Assembly (NCBI GenBank): GCA_015490895.1
Contig: WFWY01000117.1
Location: forward strand, 1 to 43,252
From: Thiotrichaceae bacterium
Lineage (GTDB): Bacteria > Pseudomonadota > Gammaproteobacteria > Thiotrichales > Thiotrichaceae
Length of the DNA stretch: 43,252 nt
Direction: 5' to 3'
Shown here: positions 7,992-20,529 of the stretch, in pieces
How the letters are laid out: every line of letters starts with the position of its first letter
Position numbering within the stretch: the first letter of the stretch is position 1
Notes under the pieces: generated by a model
Database searches by the model: none
What the model saw: the letters and a program-made list of their open reading frames with translations, nothing else
What the model was told of the DNA's origin: nothing
Position numbers and translations under genes: made by a program

Positions 7992-8909
7992 TTATCCTTT
8001 TTTAAAGTACAACGTATTCAAACCTTTACCTTCCGCTTCCCTATAGACTGAGGGTGGGGGAATATCTTCTACAAAGCGATAATGTGGTGCGAGTTGTGCC
8101 ATATGCTCCAATAAAAACTCACGTCCCAGTTCAGGCGCATTCAGGCACAATAGTAAGTGAGCTTCGGGTGCCATGAATTGATCCAGACGACGCAGGATTT
8201 TGGGGTAATCACGTTCGCTATTGACACTGCCACGTTGGAAAGTAGGTGGGTCACAGATAAGCAAGTCGAATGGCCCTCGACGCTTCAGGCGTCCAAATGA
8301 TTTGAAAATATGCAGTTTTTCGAAGGAAACTTGTTCCAGAGGGTGGTGGTTGAGTTGATGGTTCCTGCGACCGGTATTTAGCGCAGCACTACTCATATCA
8401 ATATTTAATACCGAACGTGCGCCACCGGCGATGGCAGCAACAGAAAAGCCGCAAGTATAGGCAAACAGGTTGAGCACCCGCCTGGACTGGCTGTGTTGCT
8501 GTACCCACTGTCTACCGTTACGCATATCCAGAAATAACCCGGTGTTGCGGTTTTTTCCCAGTTGAATATGGAAGTGAAGATTCCCTTCAAGGATCTCAAG
8601 CTGTTGAATGGCCCTGCCTCGAATGAGCTCTACCGGGCCGGAAGTTTCGTAGCGGTGCTGTAGCTGGATACTTTCACAGCTGGGTAAATGTACACGTAAC
8701 GCATCGGCCAGTGTTTCTACCACCTGATGAGGTTCCGGGGCGTAGAGTGTGATCAGTATAACGGGAGGCAGCCAGTCAATAGTGATGTGGTGTAGCCCGG
8801 TATAGGCGTGTCCTCGACCATGAAAAAGCCGTTGTGCCTGTACGAGCGACTGTGGGGTGGAAGGGAACTGGATATAGTCCAGCACCCGGCTTATTGGGGA
8901 GCGGGGCAT
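7992..8909 (-). CDS. Class I SAM-dependent methyltransferase, RlmI/RlmK-like
   Basis: A 305-residue Rossmann-fold methyltransferase of the Methyltrans_SAM group, which contains the 23S rRNA methyltransferases RlmI and the C-terminal half of RlmKL. Motif I is NLFAYTCGFSVAAIAGGA, the acidic SAM-ribose ligand is in LNIDMS, and motif IV is CDPPTFQRG. There is no N-terminal PUA domain, so it is shorter than RlmI (about 396 residues). The exact substrate cannot be told from sequence. Its start overlaps the upstream lipoprotein gene by 19 bases, so it is the last gene of a three-gene operon. Confidence 0.75.
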   Translation of the reverse strand: MPRSPISRVLDYIQFPSTPQSLVQAQRLFHGRGHAYTGLHHITIDWLPPVILITLYAPEPHQVVETLADALRVHLPSCESIQLQHRYETSGPVELIRGRAIQQLEILEGNLHFHIQLGKNRNTGLFLDMRNGRQWVQQHSQSRRVLNLFAYTCGFSVAAIAGGARSVLNIDMSSAALNTGRRNHQLNHHPLEQVSFEKLHIFKSFGRLKRRGPFDLLICDPPTFQRGSVNSERDYPKILRRLDQFMAPEAHLLLCLNAPELGREFLLEHMAQLAPHYRFVEDIPPPSVYREAEGKGLNTLYFKKG

Positions 8910-9694
8910 TGATAACCAATAAATAGTTGTTTAAACGAGGGTTGTAATGCTTGAGGCAGTGCCGTATAGCTTTTTTTGGCTTGACACAAAGGTGCTTGTA
9001 TACATTGTTTCTGGACTTTGAGTCGATCAGCCAGTTTTTTTCGGGAAAGTAACAGGCAGGCATCTTTATAGTTTGAAAAAGCACCCAGTTTTGAGGCGAG
9101 TAAATAGGTATGGAGTGGATGATCAGCGGGTAATGAACGACTGGCTGAATCCAGGTTTTTCATACTCTCCGAGAGTGTGTTGAGTAAGGGGTTGATATCT
9201 TTGTCAGAGGCTGTACGACCACGCAATACCAGTATTTTCTGGCGGGTTTTATCATTATCAATCAGGCTTGGCAGAATATTCATCATCACATAATCACGAT
9301 CACCCAGCGCATTATTTTGCTGTTGGTGTTGTTGTAACGCGCGTTGTTGATAGTCTTTGGCGAGTGCGTATTTTTGTAAACGCCAATAACTCATGGCTCG
9401 GAGTGCATAGGCATTGCTGAGTAACCCCATTTTCTGGAGTGAGCCTTCATCTGCTTTTGCCAGGCTGTCAATCACTGCTGAATAGGCTGCACTGATTGCC
9501 GTGCTTTCAAGCGCGGGCAATCCGGATTGGATAGCCCGACCGGAAAGCGTGTTGAGTTTCTGTTGGTTTTCTAGCTGGGCGGCTGTATTAAAGGCTTGTT
9601 GTGCTTCTTTGAGTGCATTACTTGTGCTACAACCACTGCCTGCTCCAACCAGGCAAGTGAGCAGAAAAACCGTTACAATACCTTGTATCTTCAT
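8891..9694 (-). CDS. Putative lipoprotein, function unknown
   Basis: 267 residues. The N-terminus is a lipoprotein signal (MKIQGIVTVFLLTCLVGAGS then Cys22), predicting a lipid-anchored periplasmic protein. The rest is helical, with a TPR-like stretch around residues 85-125 (ALRAMSYWRLQKYALAKDYQ). Five further Cys residues lie towards the C-terminus. The start has GAGGT 7 bases upstream. It follows the unknown 604-aa gene by 11 bases and overlaps the methyltransferase gene. I do not recognise a named family. Confidence 0.7.
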   Translation of the reverse strand: MKIQGIVTVFLLTCLVGAGSGCSTSNALKEAQQAFNTAAQLENQQKLNTLSGRAIQSGLPALESTAISAAYSAVIDSLAKADEGSLQKMGLLSNAYALRAMSYWRLQKYALAKDYQQRALQQHQQQNNALGDRDYVMMNILPSLIDNDKTRQKILVLRGRTASDKDINPLLNTLSESMKNLDSASRSLPADHPLHTYLLASKLGAFSNYKDACLLLSRKKLADRLKVQKQCIQAPLCQAKKSYTALPQALQPSFKQLFIGYQCPAPQ

Positions 9695-9705
9695 GATTTA
9701 CCTCG

Positions 9706-11520
9706 CTAGTTGATGACCTGCAATGCTTGTTGTAATTCCTGGTTAAAGGCAGGTAGATCCCAGGCTTTTCCGGACTGTATAGCAATGATTTCGTTGCTAA
9801 AGACGGTTTCTATTTGCGCCAGACTGGCCGCGTTAATTTCTGCTTTGGTCAGTGTCTCAATCGTCATTTCCATGATCTGTGCAAGCATATCGCCTTTGGC
9901 AAATTGCCAGGCTGCTGCGGATTCTTCTGGTTGCTCGCTTAGCAGCTTGCCCAGTACGACTTGAAAGAGTCGTTCCAGTATACGCTGATCTCCCTGAGCT
10001 TTATTGAAAAACTCCAGGCGTAGAGCCGCACCACGAATCCCGGCTTGCAGGATTCTGCTCCCGTTCTGACTATTAATGCGCCCAGCACCGATAGTGTTGA
10101 TGACAGTGAGCATGCTATCCAGTGCAGCTCCCAGATATTTATTATCTTCTCCTGCTTTTTTGACCAGCCATGCAGGGTTGGCTGCGACTTCTTCCAGTGT
10201 CGTATCTAACACAGCTTTTAGGTCATCACGCCCCAAACGCAGCCGCCATGGGTCCCCTGGTTCCGGCTTCTGAGCCAACCGGGATAGCAGGGTTTTGCTG
10301 GCCAACATGAGCAGGTGATCCTTTCCGGTAGTATTTTTGTCCGGCCAAAGTTGTTCGATATTGGTAGCTGATTTCTCAATAATCAGGCGGATAACATCAG
10401 GCAGTAAAGAGGGTGTTAGTGCGATTGATGGATCCAGAAGTGCTGCGCTTACATCGCTGATTACTTTCTGGATAGCCGGGTGAGTGCTGTTACTGAGTAG
10501 TTCCGGATACCGACTCACGGTGCCAATGGCGGTTTTGACTAGCGCGTCCAGTGCCGTGCGGTTAAAGGCGGAAGAAAGCTGTCCACCGGGTGCGTCCAGT
10601 ACCAGTGAAAAAATAGCGCTGCTGATATCTTTAACGACGCTTGCTTTGGCAGTATTGTCAATATCCAAAAAGGTTGTCGGGTCATTTGCAACAGCTACCC
10701 CTGCGTGTTGAATGACACTCCGAAAAATCGTTTCCGCCAGTGAAATAGCCTGAGTGTGTGCTTGTGGGTCATCGACAGTCGTGAAATAACGACTTATATC
10801 CTGTGTCAGGCCACTGGCTGTTTGCTGAATTAAACGCTGTACATTAGCATCAACCGTAATGATATCAGACTTTTCGGCGACCGTTTCCAGCAGAGAAACA
10901 GTCAGGCGCCGGGGTAGGCGTTGAATATCCTGTTTCCATTCTGCTGTAGAAAAACGTACCCCATCCATCGCCGAAAAAAGGGCGTACAGAGCCATGCCTT
11001 CGCGTGAATCGATATTCAGGCTGCCGGGTACATCCTTGAAGTAATCAACACCTATTTCCAGGAAAGTACCTGCCATTCGTTTCAGGACACTGAGGCGAGG
11101 GCTTTGTGAAAGACTGTTTTGGCGAATGCTGAACAGGTTAACCAGTGTTTCTGCAGCAACATCAGACTCCTTGAATGCGGTCTGGGCGATAATATGTTGT
11201 CTGGCTGTTTCACGGTAGGCATCCGTCTGTTTGTACCAGGTTCTGAGTGCATCCCGTAAAGATTTGCTAACTTCATTCTGAGTACTATTGAGCTCCATAT
11301 CCAGCTGGATAAGAAGTTCTTTTAACTCAGCCGGATCAGAGTCATTGGGCTGATAAGTGGAGAAGAAGTCAATAATACCGTTATCATCACGTGTGATAGA
11401 AAAGTCCAGCAGGGGAAGAACAAAAGCAGCATCACGGACGGTATCAATATAGCTGCTACGTGCTACATCACCTAAGCGTAATAAACTCTGAATAGTAAAG
11501 AGTAGCGCCTGTGGACCCAT
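9706..11520 (-). CDS. Large helical protein of unknown function
   Basis: 604 residues with no signal peptide, no transmembrane segment and no recognisable catalytic motif. It appears almost entirely alpha-helical, with leucine-rich amphipathic helices throughout, suggesting a scaffold or solenoid. Codon use and reading-frame integrity argue for a real gene; AGGA sits 6 bases before the ATG. It is first in an operon with a lipoprotein and a methyltransferase gene, and a long repeat copy lies in its upstream region. No function is offered. Confidence 0.7.
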   Translation of the reverse strand: MGPQALLFTIQSLLRLGDVARSSYIDTVRDAAFVLPLLDFSITRDDNGIIDFFSTYQPNDSDPAELKELLIQLDMELNSTQNEVSKSLRDALRTWYKQTDAYRETARQHIIAQTAFKESDVAAETLVNLFSIRQNSLSQSPRLSVLKRMAGTFLEIGVDYFKDVPGSLNIDSREGMALYALFSAMDGVRFSTAEWKQDIQRLPRRLTVSLLETVAEKSDIITVDANVQRLIQQTASGLTQDISRYFTTVDDPQAHTQAISLAETIFRSVIQHAGVAVANDPTTFLDIDNTAKASVVKDISSAIFSLVLDAPGGQLSSAFNRTALDALVKTAIGTVSRYPELLSNSTHPAIQKVISDVSAALLDPSIALTPSLLPDVIRLIIEKSATNIEQLWPDKNTTGKDHLLMLASKTLLSRLAQKPEPGDPWRLRLGRDDLKAVLDTTLEEVAANPAWLVKKAGEDNKYLGAALDSMLTVINTIGAGRINSQNGSRILQAGIRGAALRLEFFNKAQGDQRILERLFQVVLGKLLSEQPEESAAAWQFAKGDMLAQIMEMTIETLTKAEINAASLAQIETVFSNEIIAIQSGKAWDLPAFNQELQQALQVIN

Positions 11521-11550: not shown

Positions 11551-11718
11551 CTGGAAGCTTGTCCGAGAACCAGGAAACTACTGTAAATCTCATGAGTACT
11601 TTGATCCGGGCTTATTGAAATCGTTAAATAGCAGCGGCTATACATCTCTTTCAATCATTTTGGCTTATGGCACTTTGTGGTTTTTTACTATGCTTCCTGT
11701 AGTCCGACAGGCTTCTGG
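11551..11718 (+). repeat. Dispersed inverted-terminal repeat element, copy B
   Basis: A degenerate but near full-length copy. It starts CTGGAAGCTTGTCCGAGA and ends GTCCGACAGGCTTCTGG, with the interior match GGGCTTATTGAAATCGTTAA. It lies between the divergent 604-aa gene and tusE and must contain or displace part of their promoters. The 11519-11863 open frame crossing it is repeat-derived rather than a gene. Confidence 0.8.
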
Positions 11719-11864
11719 TGTTTATAGCGGATTAACAGGCTCTTGTCATTCAAAAATATCAGAAACCTGTGGCGGAATATCTCTATGGGTAGCCCTAATT
11801 GTATATTTCAGGAAGCTATCAAATCTTATAGAATGCCCTTCCTCTTATATTTGGATTGAATAAA

Positions 11865-12215
11865 ATGAGTTATATGAGAACCCCTCTGGATCTACCCTTT
11901 GAGCGGTGTACGGATGGCTACTTGCAAAACAGGGATGACTGGAATGAAGATGTGGCAAGACAAATGGCATCTGAGTGGAAAGGCCTGCAATTTACAGATG
12001 AGCATTTACCGGTGTTGTATTTCATTCGTGATTATCATGAAAAACATCAAACAACACCGGATGTCAGGGAGGCCGCTGAATTTCTGATGGAGACAATGGG
12101 GATGGACAAGAAGGCAGCAAAAAAGCACCTGTTCAAACTCTTTCCCAACGGCTATATGCAGCAAGGCATTCAGTTGGCAGGAATGCGACGCCCTACGGCC
12201 TGGTGTGTTGGTTAG
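11865..12215 (+). CDS. tusE: TusE/DsrC-family sulfur relay protein
   Basis: A 116-residue protein of the TusE/DsrC/DsvC family, small carriers that accept persulfide sulfur for tRNA 2-thiouridine synthesis (TusE) or for sulfur oxidation/reduction (DsrC). The fold hallmarks are visible: DGYLQNRDDWNEDVA near the start and FPNGYMQQGIQLAG in the C-terminal arm. The arm ends ...RRPTAWCVG. The conserved terminal Cys (114) is present, but the second Cys of true DsrC, 11 residues earlier, is Gln. That favours a TusE-like role. The C-terminus has one extra Gly after the usual CV. The start is the ATG at 11865; 11874 is also possible and no strong ribosome site is seen. No tusBCD or dsr genes are nearby. 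Confidence 0.8.
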   Translation: MSYMRTPLDLPFERCTDGYLQNRDDWNEDVARQMASEWKGLQFTDEHLPVLYFIRDYHEKHQTTPDVREAAEFLMETMGMDKKAAKKHLFKLFPNGYMQQGIQLAGMRRPTAWCVG

Positions 12216-14396: not shown

Positions 14397-14516
14397 ACAG
14401 TCTATAGAGCAACCCTCTTCGGCTGACTGGCTATGTAAAAAAACTCATTAAGGATTAACCATTAATTCCTTTTTTTACTACGCCATTCAGCCGAAGAGAA
14501 TCACTTTATAGGCTGT
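14397..14516. repeat. 120-bp imperfect palindrome
   Basis: Two 60-base arms meet near 14456/14457 and match at about 45 of 60 positions when one is reverse-complemented. Conserved blocks include ACAG(T/C)CTATA, CTCTTCGGCTGA and GTAAAAAA. Transcribed, it would fold into one long hairpin. It has no coding capacity. It may be a palindromic mobile element unrelated to the other repeat family, or a processed or termination structure for adk. Confidence 0.8.
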
Positions 14517-14560: not shown

Positions 14561-14714
14561 AGCTTGTCCCTCTGTTTTGCCCAATAGTTGTGTCACTTAC
14601 AGGGATAGAAATCGTTAAATTGTGACGGTTATTCGCCTCTTCCAGGAATCGCACCTTTCACCTTTTGAGAGTCCTGTAATTTTCGCTACGTCTCCTATTC
14701 CCAAACAAGTTCCT
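14561..14714 (+). repeat. Dispersed inverted-terminal repeat element, copy C
   Basis: The right two thirds (about 14605-14714) match the other long copies clearly: GAAATCGTTAAATTGTGACG, TATTCGCCTCTTCCAGGAAT and CGTCTCCTATTCCCAAACAA. The left part is decayed to AGCTTGTCCC and little else. The right terminus abuts the stop codon of the DUF1287 gene, read on the minus strand as TAG-GAACTTGTTTGGG. Frame-breaking changes suggest it is older than the others. Confidence 0.75.
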
Positions 14715-15564
14715 AACGTAATAATTCTGCGGGTATAACACCAATGCCAGGTATGGAGCGTGCTTGTGAAGTATTGTTTTGGGTGTAGTAGGTGGGGCGG
14801 TAATAACGCATTTTTCCGTTATAGCGATAATGCCCTGTGATTGGAAAGCGAAACAGAACATCCTCCATTTTGGGGCCTTCTGCAATATTGTGTACGATTA
14901 AATGACGACGTGAGTCCTGTTTGGAGCGCTCATCGACCACGATGCCGATATGCCCCTGACCGGGTCCAAGTTGCCAGGTCACGATATCTCCGGGTTTATA
15001 GTGTTGAGGGTTGCGGGTAATGGGGAGCCTGGTTCCATGACGGTTAAGAAAAGCCTTCAGGTTGTAAACACGGCGGTGGTCGATATTGGTGTCCGGCCCT
15101 TTGAGTTGCCATTTGCTAAGGTTCGGATAGGCGTTAAAGTTATTTTGCATGTCCTTATGAACCTGTTGCTGTAAGTCAATCCCCAGCTTTCGGTAACTGC
15201 GAATGACAACGTCGGTACAGACACCAATATTGGGTGGGACATCCCCCCAGGGGTACCCGATTTTAATATACCGACCGTCATAGACTACCTGGTGCTGGGT
15301 GCGGCTCTTGGCTGCATTTGATAGTCGATGGGCAAATGTATTGGTCTTAGCCAGTGTGACCGGGCGTTTGACAGGCCTGGTTTTCTTTTTTACGGGTTCT
15401 GCTTCAGGTATTTGGGTAGTAGAAGGGTCTTTTTGATTAGCCGGGTGTGTTGTACTACAGCCGGCTACGAACCCGGCGATAGTAAGCATGAGTACTAATT
15501 TCATCCAGGCTGTAGCCGGGAAGGTTGTTTTTTTTATTATCTTGTGCGCTACATTAAAAGCCAT
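14713..15564 (-). CDS. DUF1287 lipoprotein
   Basis: 283 residues. The N-terminus has a hydrophobic segment ending AGFVAGC (lipobox), so it is probably lipid-anchored in the periplasm; a Lys/Pro-rich linker follows. The DUF1287 domain starts around residue 95 and shows YDGRYIKIGYPWGDVPPNIG, VCTDVV, NIDHRRV and GHIGIVVDE. The Cys in VCTDV and the His in GHIGIV are placed like the pair in NlpC/P60-type Cys peptidases, but activity is unproven. The start overlaps the zinc-ribbon gene stop by 11 bases; an ATG at 15504 gives a shorter, more standard lipoprotein signal. The TAG stop lies at the end of repeat copy C. It is the last gene of the TelA/XpaC operon. Confidence 0.75.
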   Translation of the reverse strand: MAFNVAHKIIKKTTFPATAWMKLVLMLTIAGFVAGCSTTHPANQKDPSTTQIPEAEPVKKKTRPVKRPVTLAKTNTFAHRLSNAAKSRTQHQVVYDGRYIKIGYPWGDVPPNIGVCTDVVIRSYRKLGIDLQQQVHKDMQNNFNAYPNLSKWQLKGPDTNIDHRRVYNLKAFLNRHGTRLPITRNPQHYKPGDIVTWQLGPGQGHIGIVVDERSKQDSRRHLIVHNIAEGPKMEDVLFRFPITGHYRYNGKMRYYRPTYYTQNNTSQARSIPGIGVIPAELLR

Positions 15565-16741
15565 ATTCAAATACCGGAGGGTAGTAATACTGATCACTGA
15601 TGGTCGAGTCGAACAAGCCCGCATCGTTCAATAAGTAAATAATACCGATAAATAAAGCGATTACAAATAAAGCAGACAGAACGATCTTGATAATACTGTA
15701 GGGCCGTTCTCCCTGAATTTGTCCATTGCGCCCGTTAATAACAAAGCGATAGGTTTTACGGTTATAGCGAAAGGCAGCAGACCATACGGGTAATAAAAGG
15801 TGTTTGAAGGTCGTGTTGTCATGCTGGGTATTGCGTGCAGAAATACGTTGCTGATCGCCTCCTATATCCTGATAAATTCGCTGCGTAATAATACGGCTCA
15901 TGCGGTTACGTGCCTGTTCAAAGCCCTGATCCAGAGTGACTTGATAAATTTCACTACGAAAACCGCTCAGATAAGCTTCAGTATAAGGAACCAGGTTCTC
16001 AAGATCCCATGGATGAAGGTTGTCAATGATCGTGCGTGGCAAGGTTTTGGTGGCACCAATCAGAACATCATCAAAGTGTAAGAAAACATTACCTGACACA
16101 GGAGTCCAGCGGACTCTGGGGACATTTCTGACTTGCCGTACAGGTCGCCCATTGATAAAGGCGGTATAGACTTGTCGATCATAGTAAACGGTACCACGCA
16201 TGCCATCGTAGCGTGTTTCAGTATCACTGTCATATGTCCAGTAGGGTAGATAGATACCGGTTAGTTTTTCATCCCGTTTGGATTTGTTTTTTAATGAGGA
16301 GGGTGCAAACCAGCGACTGGTGATCCAGTTGTCAAAGATTTCCTGTGCCTGTTTTTCACGAATAATAAACGGTAATAGGGATTCAGGGTGAATATAGCGG
16401 GCATCTTCCTGACTAATGACTGCAGGGGCTCCGCAGAATGGACAGTTCCCTGCCGATTCATTGGGTTTAAGGCTAAATTTGGCACCACACGAAGGGCAAT
16501 TCAGGACAGAGATAACACGCCTGGGCTCATCTTTAAGTTTATCAAGCCTTCTGAGTGCAGCGCGAAAATCAAATTCATGGATGGGAGTCCAGTCAACCTG
16601 GATCAGGTTGACGAAACCACAATAGTCGCATTTCAGGGAGTCTGTACCGGGTGCATATACTAATTCTGCGCCACATCGCTCACAGGGAAAATGGCTCTGC
16701 TGGCGTGTCTCTTCCTCTAATGAGTAGTTTTTAACTTTCAC
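15554..16741 (-). CDS. Double zinc-ribbon membrane protein, YdjG-like
   Basis: 395 residues. Two TFIIB-type zinc ribbons are at the N-terminus: C20-x2-C23...C38-x2-C41 and C82-x2-C85...C100-x2-C103. A long middle region follows with YWTYDSDTETRYDGMRG and a paired FINGRPV/VINGRNGQ motif, then one transmembrane helix (about 346-368) near the C-terminus. Proteins of this type are often mis-named primosomal protein N'. B. subtilis YdjG, encoded with SPFH protein YdjI, has a comparable ribbon-plus-membrane design. Start is GTG with no clear ribosome site. It lies 19 bases after the SPFH gene. A membrane-stress scaffold role is inference. Confidence 0.7.
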   Translation of the reverse strand: MKVKNYSLEEETRQQSHFPCERCGAELVYAPGTDSLKCDYCGFVNLIQVDWTPIHEFDFRAALRRLDKLKDEPRRVISVLNCPSCGAKFSLKPNESAGNCPFCGAPAVISQEDARYIHPESLLPFIIREKQAQEIFDNWITSRWFAPSSLKNKSKRDEKLTGIYLPYWTYDSDTETRYDGMRGTVYYDRQVYTAFINGRPVRQVRNVPRVRWTPVSGNVFLHFDDVLIGATKTLPRTIIDNLHPWDLENLVPYTEAYLSGFRSEIYQVTLDQGFEQARNRMSRIITQRIYQDIGGDQQRISARNTQHDNTTFKHLLLPVWSAAFRYNRKTYRFVINGRNGQIQGERPYSIIKIVLSALFVIALFIGIIYLLNDAGLFDSTISDQYYYPPVFEYGF

Positions 16742-16760
16742 TCGTGATGATCGTGTATAG

Positions 16761-17852
16761 CTAGAGTTCTGGTGGAATCAGCTTGCCAATTTCCTCAACA
16801 TGACGGGCACTTTTCCAGTCTTCCATGCCTTCCGTCCACACCAGGGAGTCTGGTGTGAGCTTGCCATCCTTGATGAGGATTCTGATGGCAGCAAGGTCAT
16901 GCGGCCCTGTTGCCTTGTCATCAATAGCAACATGCCAGAGTGTTTGTGTGGGTAGTGGGGGGGGTGGTGTAGCGGGTGTTTGCCCGTCTTTACCTGTAGC
17001 AGGTGATGAGGGGGTATTGAGTGAATCTGCCATTTTATTGGCCATGGCGAATCCCATACCCATATCCATGGCGCTTGAAGCACTGCCACCTGTGCCAAGT
17101 GCTTCTGCTGACTGGTATTTAATGTATTGATCAAGGTCTCCAACCATTCCCATACTGACCCGCTTGTCCAGTGCTTCTTCGACACTGGATGGCAGGGAGA
17201 TGTTTTCTACCAGAATCTTGGTAAGTTCCAGACCATATTCTTCGAATTCGGAAGAGATAGTGTCTGTTAAGTATTTGCCCAGTTGATCATAGTTGGCAGC
17301 CAGATCCAGTACGGGGATCTTTGAGCTGCCTGCAATATTGGTAAATCGGGAGATGATCAGGTTGCGTAATTGGTCACTGATTTCATCTACGGTAAAGTGG
17401 CCATCGGTACCCGCTATTTCACGGATGAACTTCACGGGGTCTTTAATGCGTATAGCATAGGTTCCAAAAGCACGTAACCGGACACCACCAAACTCTTCAT
17501 CACGAATCATAATGGGGTTTTTTGTGCCCCATTTCAGATCAACAAACTGTTTGGTACTGCAAAAGTAGATTTCCGCCTTGAAGGGGCTTTGTAGTCCATG
17601 ATCCCAGTGTTGAATAGTTGATAAAATGGGCAGGTTTTTGGTTTCGAGTTCATACATGCCCGGTTCAATCACATCAGCGACTTCGCCTTCATTAACAAAG
17701 ACAGCGACCTGTGATTCTCGCACAGTCAGTTTTGCACCGTACTTTATTTCGTTACCATAGCGCTCGAAGCGGTAGATCAGGGTATCATGACTGTCATCTG
17801 TCCATTCTATGATGTCAATGAACTCACCGAATAGTTTGTCGAATAGTCCCAT
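16761..17852 (-). CDS. SPFH-domain protein with C-terminal GYF_2 domain
   Basis: 363 residues. Residues 1-240 form an SPFH/band-7-like domain of the YdjI or virion-core-protein type (MGLFDKLFGEFIDIIEW start, VNEGEVADVIEPGMYEL). A Gly/Ser/Met-rich and then Pro-rich linker (250-303) leads to a GYF_2-type domain (304-358) with WHVA, GP, LTPDSLVWTEGMEDWKSA. GYF_2 domains bind proline-rich or partner peptides. There is no transmembrane helix, so membrane association would be peripheral. AGAGGT lies 7 bases before ATG, and the gene begins 2 bases after telA stops. B. subtilis YdjI works with PspA; no pspA is seen here. Confidence 0.8.
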   Translation of the reverse strand: MGLFDKLFGEFIDIIEWTDDSHDTLIYRFERYGNEIKYGAKLTVRESQVAVFVNEGEVADVIEPGMYELETKNLPILSTIQHWDHGLQSPFKAEIYFCSTKQFVDLKWGTKNPIMIRDEEFGGVRLRAFGTYAIRIKDPVKFIREIAGTDGHFTVDEISDQLRNLIISRFTNIAGSSKIPVLDLAANYDQLGKYLTDTISSEFEEYGLELTKILVENISLPSSVEEALDKRVSMGMVGDLDQYIKYQSAEALGTGGSASSAMDMGMGFAMANKMADSLNTPSSPATGKDGQTPATPPPPLPTQTLWHVAIDDKATGPHDLAAIRILIKDGKLTPDSLVWTEGMEDWKSARHVEEIGKLIPPEL

Positions 17853-17854
17853 AT

Positions 17855-19063
17855 TTATACCTCTTTTTTCCCATTCTCTAGTTGCTGGGGGTTTTCCAGC
17901 TTTGTAGCTTGTTCTTCGGCACGTGCTTTGGCAGCAAGCATGGCTTCATGTAATTCGGTTTCCATTTCAGTTAGTTCGGCAACGGCTTTATGCCGGGCAG
18001 CCCGGCCTTCTTCGGCAATTTGCAGGCTGTCATTAATCGTTGCGATGAGGGAATCATTGGCTTTTCGTACAGATTCAATATCAAAAACACCTCGTTCTAT
18101 CTGCTTACGTACTTCAAGATTACCCTGTTGCAAGTTCTCGGCATTTGATTCTAACAGCTCATTCGTCAGGTCGGTGGCATTTTTGACCGAGTCTGCCGCA
18201 TCACTCATACGAAAAATAGTGACAGCTTGCGCTAGCTGATTTTTCCATAGAGGGACAGTATTGATCAAGGTTGAGTTGATTTTCGAGATCAGGGATTTGT
18301 CGTTCTCCTGTACCAGTCTGATGCTGGGCAGGCTTTGCATGGCAACCTGTCGGGTCAGACGCAGATCGTGTACGCGTCGCTCCAGGTCGTCCCGGGCACT
18401 ACGCATATCCCGGAGTTCTTGTGCCAATAGCATATCTTCCTTGTTTGCTTTGGCTTTTTCAGCCATTTCGGGCAGTATTTCGGTGTTCAGTTGTTCCAGC
18501 TTTTTCTCTCCTGCAGCAATATACAGTTCCAGCTTGTGGAAATAGTCCAGGTTAGCCTCATACAATTTATCCAGAGAGATGATATCGGTTAGCAGCTGTG
18601 TCTTGTGCTCTTCCAGGTTGTCCGTGATGACGTTGATCTGTTTGCGTACGTCATCGTATTTGCTGAGGAATTCGGCGACAGGCTTGGCTTTGCCGAAGAG
18701 TCGGCTGAAGAAACCGGGCTTACGGGTAGGGTCGAGCTGGTCAATGTCAAAGCCTTTGATGGCAACAACTATTTCATTCAGGGAACGACTGGCATTGCCA
18801 AGATCCTTGTTTTTTACCCCTTCAAGCATGTTTTCGGAGATCGTGCTCATATCCTCCTGCGCTTGTGTGCCAAAAAACAGGATAGAGTTTCTGTCTTTCA
18901 GGTCGATTTCCTCCATAATGGGGGTAATGAGGTTTTTATCTTCCTCGGATGCTTCATCATAAGCAATGATATCACTGGATATATCCTGGTCACTGGTTAG
19001 TTCTGTACCCGCAATGATTTCGGCTTCTGTTGTCGTTGTCTCTGTTTGTTGCTTGTCAGACAT
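17855..19063 (-). CDS. TelA/KlaA-family protein
   Basis: 402 residues with the TelA (toxic anion resistance) family pattern. After an acidic disordered N-terminus comes KGFDIDQLDPTRKPGFFSRL, a family-typical segment, then long coiled coils (about 170-255 and 290-395). It is soluble and probably associates with membrane partners. The family was named for tellurite resistance on plasmids but is widespread in chromosomes, where B. subtilis YaaN pairs with XpaC, as here. AGGAG lies 6 bases before ATG. The likely role is envelope or membrane stress tolerance; tellurite itself is not implied. Confidence 0.85.
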   Translation of the reverse strand: MSDKQQTETTTTEAEIIAGTELTSDQDISSDIIAYDEASEEDKNLITPIMEEIDLKDRNSILFFGTQAQEDMSTISENMLEGVKNKDLGNASRSLNEIVVAIKGFDIDQLDPTRKPGFFSRLFGKAKPVAEFLSKYDDVRKQINVITDNLEEHKTQLLTDIISLDKLYEANLDYFHKLELYIAAGEKKLEQLNTEILPEMAEKAKANKEDMLLAQELRDMRSARDDLERRVHDLRLTRQVAMQSLPSIRLVQENDKSLISKINSTLINTVPLWKNQLAQAVTIFRMSDAADSVKNATDLTNELLESNAENLQQGNLEVRKQIERGVFDIESVRKANDSLIATINDSLQIAEEGRAARHKAVAELTEMETELHEAMLAAKARAEEQATKLENPQQLENGKKEV

Positions 19064-19204
19064 GGTCTACTCCTGTCCTGGTGATAAGAGGTTGATGCCC
19101 TTTTTCTGCTTGTTAACAGGGAGCAGGAAAGGGCCGGAAAGATTACAGGTGTCGTTATCAATTCATGTGATGCACGAGGTTCCAATAAATGGAAGCGATG
19201 TTTT

Positions 19205-20059
19205 TTATGTGATTCCTTCCTGCTTTAGCTGTGTTTCCAGCACTTCAATTTGTACGTCAAGATCAAAGCGGTCGTTTTCTTTTAGCCTGGTATGTTGTGT
19301 ATCAAAGGTTTCTTCAATGGACTCCAGTACACGAATAAAGTTGGCATCCAGCGTGTCTGTAGTGGCATCTCGGCGATGAGTCTCAGCATATTTTTGTGTG
19401 ACACGCTCGGCTCCTGAAAGGTAGACTTTGAGAAACTTGCGTGCTCTTTGCAAGTCTCTGGGGTCTTCCTCGATGACGTTCAGTATTTCCCGTGCCTTGT
19501 CGATAATGCGATCAAGGCGACGTTTTAGATCCAGGTTCTTGATACTGCGTTTGGCATTTTCCAGTCCTGATATTTTAATCTCGGCGGCTTCCAGCGCGTC
19601 AATCACTTCTTCGGCTGTGACACCAAGGGAAACACTCCCCGTTTTATTTTTGCGTGGATCCAGTCCATAGGAAAACATGAACCCCAGCAACGCGGCCCCC
19701 CCCATGAGAATACTACTAAAGAGGGGTTGCGGCGTGGTGAAATAGGCCGTGAGTCCGGTTGTAATGGCGAGGATAATGGCGGCAACTGTTTTATAGGGGG
19801 TGCCGGGTGCACGGGCGAATTTTTTTCTTTCAAAGCTGGATTCTATTTTTAATCCATGACGGGCAATGATTGCAGCAACGGTAAAGCCTGCAAAGGAGGT
19901 ACCTAATACTATAGTTTTCCAGAAGTTTCCCTGTATCAGTGAAATAATGGCGGCTATCAGGATGGGCACGGGTAAAAAATAAAGCAGGACACCCTTGAGG
20001 CCGTAGCGTACTTCATGGACCACATCAGCTGTTGAATTGATGCGTTTTATTTTAGACAT
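19205..20059 (-). CDS. XpaC-like membrane protein
   Basis: 284 residues. Helical hydrophobic segments at about 23-42, 49-66, 92-110 and 115-132 form an N-terminal membrane domain. A cytosolic helical C-terminal half follows with the XpaC-family region (TAEEVIDALEAAEIKISGLE...). XpaC is annotated as a 5-bromo-4-chloroindolyl phosphate hydrolysis protein in Bacillus, but its biochemistry is not established. Adjacency to a telA gene is the classic context. A 141-base gap separates it from telA, with no obvious terminator. A 32-residue membrane ORF precedes it. Confidence 0.75.
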   Translation of the reverse strand: MSKIKRINSTADVVHEVRYGLKGVLLYFLPVPILIAAIISLIQGNFWKTIVLGTSFAGFTVAAIIARHGLKIESSFERKKFARAPGTPYKTVAAIILAITTGLTAYFTTPQPLFSSILMGGAALLGFMFSYGLDPRKNKTGSVSLGVTAEEVIDALEAAEIKISGLENAKRSIKNLDLKRRLDRIIDKAREILNVIEEDPRDLQRARKFLKVYLSGAERVTQKYAETHRRDATTDTLDANFIRVLESIEETFDTQHTRLKENDRFDLDVQIEVLETQLKQEGIT

Positions 20060-20072
20060 GATTGGTCTGCCG

Positions 20073-20171
20073 TCAGGTGGCTATCAGGTAATACAGTGCC
20101 TGTATCGAGACAACCCCAACACTAGCCAAAAGAAGTAATAAGCCAAGTAGTTTTTTAAGTATGTAGGGCAA
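20073..20171 (-). CDS. Small single-span membrane protein (32 aa)
   Basis: A TTG-initiated frame preceded by AAGAGGA at a good 7-base spacing encodes 32 residues: a short basic start (PYILKK), one hydrophobic helix (LLGLLLLLASVGVVSI) and a short tail ending LIAT. It ends 13 bases before the XpaC-like gene in the same direction, so it could be the first gene of that operon. Its composition is what is expected of a real small membrane protein, but a short frame like this can arise by chance. Confidence 0.45.
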   Translation of the reverse strand: MPYILKKLLGLLLLLASVGVVSIQALYYLIAT

Positions 20172-20355: not shown

Positions 20356-20529
20356 CCAGGAGCCTGTCTGGAAACTAGGAAGTTACTGCAAACCCCATGA
20401 GTATCATAATCTGAATCTGAGCTTATTGAAATTATTAAATAGCGGTGGCTATTCGCCTCTTCCAATAATCTCACCTTATGATGCTCCTGTGATTTTCGCT
20501 ACACCTCCTATTCTCGGACAGGCTCCTGG
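20356..20529 (+). repeat. Dispersed inverted-terminal repeat element, copy D (reference)
   Basis: The best-preserved copy, 174 bp. The outer 13 bases are perfect inverted repeats (CCAGGAGCCTGTC / GACAGGCTCCTGG) and the match continues imperfectly inwards. The interior includes CTGAGCTTATTGAAATTATT, GGCTATTCGCCTCTTCC and ATCTCACCTTATGATGCTCC. It lies alone in the 575-base gap between the small ORF and the ferredoxin gene. The rest of that gap (20261-20355, 20530-20746) holds no gene I can support. Confidence 0.9.

Follow-up and report, generated by a model that had tools for sequence, protein, structure and literature searches.

A conserved operon combining a microprotein with XpaC, TelA, SPFH, and zinc-ribbon proteins: a candidate inner-membrane protection system in Thiotrichaceae and beyond

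The window analyzed in this study is a 43,252-nt stretch of contig WFWY01000117.1 from a metagenome-assembled genome of a Thiotrichaceae bacterium (G000; 2.78 Mb, 171 contigs, 95% complete). Its minus strand carries an operon that encodes, in this order, a 32-codon membrane peptide (below, the microprotein), XpaC, TelA, an SPFH protein with a GYF domain, a double-zinc-ribbon membrane protein (ZnR), and a DUF1287 lipoprotein. The operon is real and conserved, more widely than the window alone could show, with exceptions in the ZnR link; its four-gene core recurs in many marine and sulfur bacteria. The microprotein and xpaC are separated by 13 nt, xpaC and telA by 141 nt, telA and the SPFH gene by 2 nt, and the SPFH and ZnR genes by 19 nt; the ZnR and DUF1287 genes overlap by 71 nt from the first ATG of the latter or by 11 nt from the ATG at 15564. 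An earlier sequence-only reading of this DNA had given the gaps of 2 and 19 nt and one overlap, in agreement with the gene calls, and was silent on the gaps of 141 and 13 nt. Across 67 related loci the median gaps are 51, 3, and 28 nt, approximate values with open reading frames (ORFs) taken from the first start codon. Promoter and terminator scans gave no excess over shuffles (12 vs 11.6 and 4 vs 6.1, respectively), and the sole match in the PADLOC phage-defence search was a weak partial one of ZnR (8e-5).

Both XpaC and TelA score far above the gathering scores of their families. XpaC (19205..20059; PF10112, Halogen_Hydrol, 1.8e-30, 106.8 bits against 29.8) has hydrophobic segments at the N-terminus followed by a helical domain taken as cytosolic. 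TelA (17855..19063; PF05816, 1.5e-113, 379.7 bits against 30) has no hydrophobic segment, and long helices are predicted; in its structure model (mean predicted local distance difference test score, pLDDT, 75.1; predicted template modelling score, pTM, 0.53) they span residues 128-206, 211-323, and 329-390 (79, 113, and 62 residues) and would suit a membrane-lining coiled coil. A PspA-like fold was considered for TelA and drew no specific structural match: Foldseek gave none at E <= 0.001, and PspA itself is not among the structural matches listed, though it could lie beyond them. PDB sequence searches gave no match for TelA, XpaC, or DUF1287. TelA and XpaC owe their names to tellurite and to a colour reaction; to our knowledge neither has an accepted mechanism, nor do we know of a clear job for bacterial SPFH proteins.

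The SPFH protein (16761..17852) combines a Band_7_1 domain (PF13421, 5.9e-100, 333.6 bits against a gathering score of 24) with a C-terminal GYF_2 domain (1.2e-16). It has no hydrophobic segment, in agreement with a YdjI-type protein, and carries a PPPPLP motif before GYF_2 and a PPEL tail. A scan of seven SPFH proteins from several phyla scored the GYF_2 domain in every one, and the Enterococcus protein considered below gave no such score; a simple GYF pattern matched 26 of 75 SPFH proteins, being too strict, as some relatives lack the W. All 75 SPFH proteins longer than 330 aa from the 80 loci described below contain PPP within the last 130 residues, and in 56 of them PPx[LMI] forms the C-terminal end. 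The PP before the GYF domain is invariant in the family alignment, and the Campylobacterota proteins inspected have PPP in the tail only, none before GYF. GYF domains bind proline. Since the GYF domain lies within a C-terminal stretch rich in proline and the tails are mostly PPxL-like, a clasp between the tail of one SPFH subunit and the GYF domain of another is possible. A PDB sequence search with the SPFH protein yielded a GYF-domain match to the gliding-motility protein GltJ/AgmX (7z3c). The resemblance covers no more than the GYF part, with 45.5 bits where the NCBIfam cut-off is 450, and nothing linking the GYF domain and GltJ was found in the literature searched.

ZnR (15554..16741) contains four CxxC motifs, a conserved middle domain, and a C-terminal hydrophobic segment (residues 346-378). 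Its Pfam zinc-ribbon matches are sub-threshold only, and a PDB sequence search gave two weak zinc-ribbon matches (E 0.06 and 0.09); the four CxxC motifs are present in 76 of 79 ZnR relatives. In BLASTP comparison with an SPFH-ZnR-TPM locus of Enterococcus gallinarum, ZnR shows 23% identity over nearly its full length (E 5e-34) and the SPFH protein 23% identity (E 2e-13). These alignments connect the SPFH-ZnR pair with the type that Ravi et al. 2024 (PMC11237479) describe from Firmicutes. Judged by its predicted features, that is, two zinc ribbons, a middle domain, a transmembrane segment, and an SPFH neighbour, ZnR is a YdjG-type protein, the comparison being made via the Enterococcus locus.

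PF10112 was found in 23 of 24 Thiotrichaceae genomes, G000 included, and in none of 15 genomes from other families. The family exception, G015, consists of 360 contigs, also lacks Band_7_1, and holds ZnR only as a broken piece. From 22 other family genomes we read 24 loci; two of these are second xpaC copies and stand outside the counts, namely L049, which runs into a contig end, and L050, detected by profile alone. In all 22 main loci xpaC, telA, and the SPFH gene are collinear, and in 16 of them ZnR directly follows SPFH. In G012, G017, and G023 the contig stops no more than 43 nt from the SPFH match. G012 has ZnR after the remainder of SPFH on a different contig; G017 and G023 also carry ZnR on a different contig, which speaks neither for nor against linkage.

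Beyond the family, a scan with the ZnR alignment was read for the best 80 of at least 572 relatives, a sample biased towards close relatives and overlapping in part with the family genomes; Thiothrix caldifontis, Leucothrix arctica, and Cocleimonas are among the relatives named. All four genes lie on one strand and in one order at 67 of these 80 loci, Campylobacterota included; in 62 of the 67 the TelA-SPFH and SPFH-ZnR gaps are below 600 nt, and five contain inserts. A contig end cuts seven loci (L054, L072, L074, L085, L089, L106, and L128, the last counted here with TelA starting at base 187). In a class survey of 252 evenly drawn genomes, 19 have XpaC above the cut-off; they contain 21 such loci, and TelA adjoins 20 of these. 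A strong SPFH match (>290 bits) occurs in 14 class genomes, in 12 of them adjoining XpaC-TelA, and is present in 13 of the 19 XpaC genomes against one of the 233 others (Fisher p 1.9e-16, not corrected for kinship); two weaker Band_7_1 matches, one in G223 (133 bits) and the other an additional match in G271 (129 bits), were not counted, nor were the many below 30 bits. ZnR is behind SPFH at nine of the 12 class loci; it is on another contig in G091 and G221, and in G153 the contig ends. The ZnR draw of 274 genomes gave 14 strong matches and five weak short ones. Protein distances of the four core proteins correlate at 0.83-0.89 (64 loci), and in each of the four protein trees the six Campylobacterota members form a single clade; shared species history would give part of both results. 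The sequence-only reading would have been refuted by a gene set that is not kept together in related genomes; this neighbourhood check supports joint conservation for the XpaC-TelA-SPFH core and, with ZnR exceptions, for the four genes. In Campylobacterota loci L111, L115, L127, L128, and L130, a related large membrane protein gene follows ZnR (NnrS, PF05940, in L115, the one scanned).

The microprotein (20073..20171; 32 aa, single transmembrane segment) starts with TTG, 6 nt after the end of a Shine-Dalgarno-like AGAGGA, and has an N-terminal KK followed by a hydrophobic helix; it has no Pfam match at E <= 1. Genes of this size are often dropped by gene callers. An orthologue lies upstream of xpaC at all 21 family loci that have upstream sequence. 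A profile built from 21 Thiotrichaceae peptides was used to search 9473 small ORFs at 55 non-family loci; 44 of these loci hold an xpaC start. At E <= 0.01 it gave 37 matches, 36 of them just upstream of xpaC; the remaining one, at L099, was read as also lying at xpaC and was scored elsewhere because the XpaC ORF had been extended upstream. At E <= 1 there are 40 matches near xpaC, L099, and one other ORF, and at E <= 10, 19 matches elsewhere. Five groups (26 hand-picked sequences) were compared for the ratio of nonsynonymous to synonymous variation (pN/pS): each gives 0.15-0.19, against pooled values of 0.99 and 5.13 for the two shifted frames. We regard this as strong comparative evidence that the tiny ORF is coding, and by sequence comparison the family is present in Gammaproteobacteria and Campylobacterota.

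By eye, the microprotein was also seen at XpaC loci without strong SPFH nearby (L150, L154, L157, L159, L161, and L164), which argues that it belongs with XpaC. It was not found by eye at L163, a four-gene locus, or at L165 and L170; L166 and L171 contain doubtful candidates only, and no clear homologue was seen at the alphaproteobacterial L119 and L122. Thiodictyon has an annotated 144-nt 'hypothetical protein' gene at the same position, a correspondence of position and not of compared sequence. A lipoprotein nature was considered and set aside: many homologues have Cys at a lipobox-like site, but Thiotrichaceae mostly have I, L, or V there and most Campylobacterota W, and since the residue varies between groups, lipidation is not general. 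The XpaC of the second copy L049 (G004:C81) is divergent, at 36% identity; a microprotein relative of greater length (52 aa) comes before this XpaC, and the contig ends after it. The literature search gave no title on an XpaC microprotein among the matches listed. The sequence-only reading treated the tiny membrane ORF as an added part; its presence and conservation with xpaC stand, but it matters more than was supposed there, being the freshest and unexpected part of the operon.

The DUF1287 lipoprotein gene (14713..15564; PF06940, 1.7e-66; lipobox VAGC) has an uncertain start (15624, 15564, or 15504). Cys136, His225, and His245, numbered from the ATG at 15624, are invariant in four sequences, and this conserved Cys-His pair makes the protein a candidate papain-like/CHAP hydrolase, the CHAP match being sub-threshold. 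Among family loci with ZnR, the gene comes after ZnR in all five of the genus (window included) and in none of the 12 others. There are three DUF1287 genes in G000, in the window and on contigs G000:C164 and G000:C74. We therefore rejected DUF1287 as a core part: its position is restricted to the genus and the genome holds three copies. Being a genus-level addition, it leaves the periplasmic arm outside the core. The picture of a complete machine spanning cytosol, inner membrane, and periplasm, drawn from the window sequence, is thus retained for microprotein-XpaC-TelA-SPFH-ZnR and loses its periplasmic DUF1287 arm. Up to five DUF1287 genes were seen per family member. In the alphaproteobacterial L114, L119, and L122, DUF2927 lipoprotein genes lie between TelA and SPFH, and an annotated Paracoccus plasmid has such a gene at the same place. 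In G002, of the same genus as G000, the stretch after SPFH (L045, 2962-3459) is without ZnR and ends in an open frame resembling a lipoprotein start.

The components of the operon are known; their combination was not found in the literature searched. In Bacillus subtilis, xpaC-yaaN and pspA-ydjGHI are separate, both reported in the sigma-W regulon (PMC3498285); the proposal that two Bacillus half-modules are joined here in one operon is borne out. The pspA-ydjGHI operon (PspA, zinc-ribbon YdjG, TPM protein YdjH, SPFH protein YdjI) resembles the operon of the window in having an SPFH gene and a zinc-ribbon transmembrane protein gene together, but the latter lacks the PspA and TPM genes and has XpaC-TelA, and its SPFH tail is GYF_2 in place of the zinc ribbon. 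The XpaC-TelA pair is shared with B. subtilis xpaC-yaaN and Listeria lmo1966-lmo1967, for both of which envelope-stress regulation is reported, whereas in the window it is fused to SPFH-ZnR. The microprotein heads the pair in the window. PF04012 has no match in the six operon ORFs or anywhere in the 95%-complete G000, in accord with the earlier remark that PspA is missing, and a TPM domain was not found by Pfam among the operon ORFs of the window. Without PspA the operon is not a member of the phage-shock protein (PSP) system, whose network has been described (PMC9239133), and without a TPM anchor it is not a Firmicutes ydjGHI-type module. In the band-7/PspA neighbourhoods of Ravi et al., too, band-7 proteins have zinc-ribbon partners, and a place of action beneath the membrane is proposed for them; the main text searched for that study mentions neither TelA nor SPFH by those terms. 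In the literature searched, no paper was found that links SPFH with XpaC and TelA or with 'toxic anion resistance'; the one paper pairing the latter term with flotillin concerns Bacillus and plants, and the titles matched by TelA and 'band 7' were unrelated among the matches listed.

Regulation and phenotypes reported for homologues indicate the cell envelope. In B. subtilis, YdjG and YdjH are needed for YdjI and PspA foci, PspA placement at the membrane requires YdjI, YdjG, and YdjH, and cell-shape defects appear under alkali (PMC8581546). XpaC-like and telA1 genes of Lactococcus lactis rise on membrane-protein overproduction and are listed beside cesSR (PMC3139573); XpaC- and TelA-type genes of Listeria rise on garvicin KS, the mechanism of the TelA-type protein being stated as not known (PMC12791056); and xpaC is up in an Enterococcus faecium mutant with raised liaFSR transcripts (PMC10269926).

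We suggest, with a probability of about 0.5, that the operon represents two known envelope-stress half-modules merged into one inner-membrane protection complex that is largely co-inherited. Published work on homologues points to the envelope-stress role and to the recruitment of SPFH. In the first half-module, the single-transmembrane microprotein and the multi-transmembrane XpaC would hold the long-helix TelA at the membrane. In the second, the zinc-ribbon transmembrane protein would recruit an oligomeric, GYF-tipped SPFH scaffold, similar to the recruitment of YdjI by YdjG and YdjH in B. subtilis. Upon envelope damage or attack by cationic peptides, the membrane components would gather TelA and the SPFH scaffold at the site of damage, and these two would stabilise the bilayer there. 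XpaC-TelA would hold the positions of TPM (YdjH) and PspA in Firmicutes, neighbouring SPFH subunits could be clasped tail to GYF, and periplasmic lipoproteins that differ between clades (DUF1287 in the window, DUF2927 in Alphaproteobacteria) may couple the complex to the cell wall. TelA as a PspA equivalent, the GYF clasp, and an action of the microprotein on XpaC are speculative. One largely co-inherited unit with a microprotein offers a defined partner set to test.

Several observations weigh against this merged complex. In the family, the 365, 191, and 498 nt behind SPFH at L035, L037, and L045 contain no ZnR frame, in G010 ZnR is on another contig and not directly after SPFH, and the genome search gave no ZnR match in G002 (69% complete) and G021 (83% complete); the 191 nt behind SPFH in G021 may be too short to decide, and ZnR may have been lost in G002. 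Outside the family, SPFH-ZnR occurs without XpaC-TelA nearby at five of the 80 loci (L113, L120, L121, L123, and L126, with titles naming Bacteroidetes twice, Acidobacteria, Sedimentisphaerales, and Phycisphaerae) and without XpaC or TelA in G246, ZnR at L065 has no SPFH, TelA, or XpaC in 5 kb upstream, and XpaC-TelA lacks strong SPFH in six of the 19 class genomes. PspA (PF04012) matches elsewhere in 15 of the 24 family genomes, and for this reason TelA is not a simple PspA replacement. The VIA-align matches of the TelA model are generic long-helix ones (among those listed, Z up to 12.5 at 4-16% identity, with designed bundles, alpha-pore-forming toxins, Smc coiled coils, and CorA/Mrs2), and the ZnR model (mean pLDDT 53.9 from 17 sequences) is too poor for searching. 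A bacteriocin-resistant L. lactis mutant carries a truncated XpaC-like YnhD among other mutations (PMC7864038), which could indicate a different role.

The solitary halves, together with ZnR on another contig in G010, G091, and G221, would also fit two independent housekeeping modules that share a promoter, the operon being an arrangement and not a complex. This explanation is unlikely, as the gene order is kept across Gammaproteobacteria and Campylobacterota, the protein distances agree, ZnR is retained elsewhere in the same three genomes, and G271 keeps both halves at separate, unlinked places. Another improbable alternative is membrane-protein quality control, in which SPFH and the zinc-ribbon protein would assemble or triage inner-membrane complexes with XpaC-TelA as an adaptor; it draws on the chaperone-like roles proposed by Ravi et al. 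for band-7 and TPM partners of PspA and on the response of the L. lactis genes to membrane-protein overproduction. A bolder version of the protection complex is likewise doubtful: a second, PspA-independent Gram-negative membrane-repair machine, with the microprotein sensing bilayer damage and gating XpaC, TelA polymerising in a PspA-like manner, and an SPFH cage with GYF-proline clasps corralling the patch via the ZnR anchor. A tellurite or toxic-anion resistance operon, with TelA and XpaC protecting against oxyanions and SPFH and ZnR as helpers, agrees with the TelA family name and with a 2-fold effect on tellurite cited for Listeria with a disrupted lmo1967 (PMC12791056) but is very unlikely, given the larger, 4-fold nisin sensitivity cited for a telA-type mutant in the same source, the envelope-related regulation of homologues, and no TerB/TerC/TerD-type domain in the 16 window proteins scanned. 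The joint unit points to a role of TelA at the membrane, alongside an SPFH scaffold, and not to one in anion resistance.

Copies of a dispersed repeat of about 115 bases flank the operon (2680-2790, 11604-11718, 14605-14714, and 20415-20529). This repeat matches the genome at 51 places, with 40 out of 100 candidates scored, and several copies match both strands, resembling miniature inverted-repeat transposable elements (MITE) or repetitive extragenic palindromes (REP). Being a genome-wide family, the flanking direct repeats were rejected as a mobile-element footprint of the operon. An abutting 60+60-nt inverted repeat, 75% complementary, lies at 14397-14516, between the DUF1287 and adenylate kinase genes. 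Elsewhere in the window, two adjoining minus-strand ORFs of 604 and 267 aa (9706-11520 and 8891-9694) have no Pfam match at 0.001, and the plus-strand gene at 11856-12215 encodes a DsrC-like protein (PF04358, 2.7e-24), which fits a sulfur bacterium.

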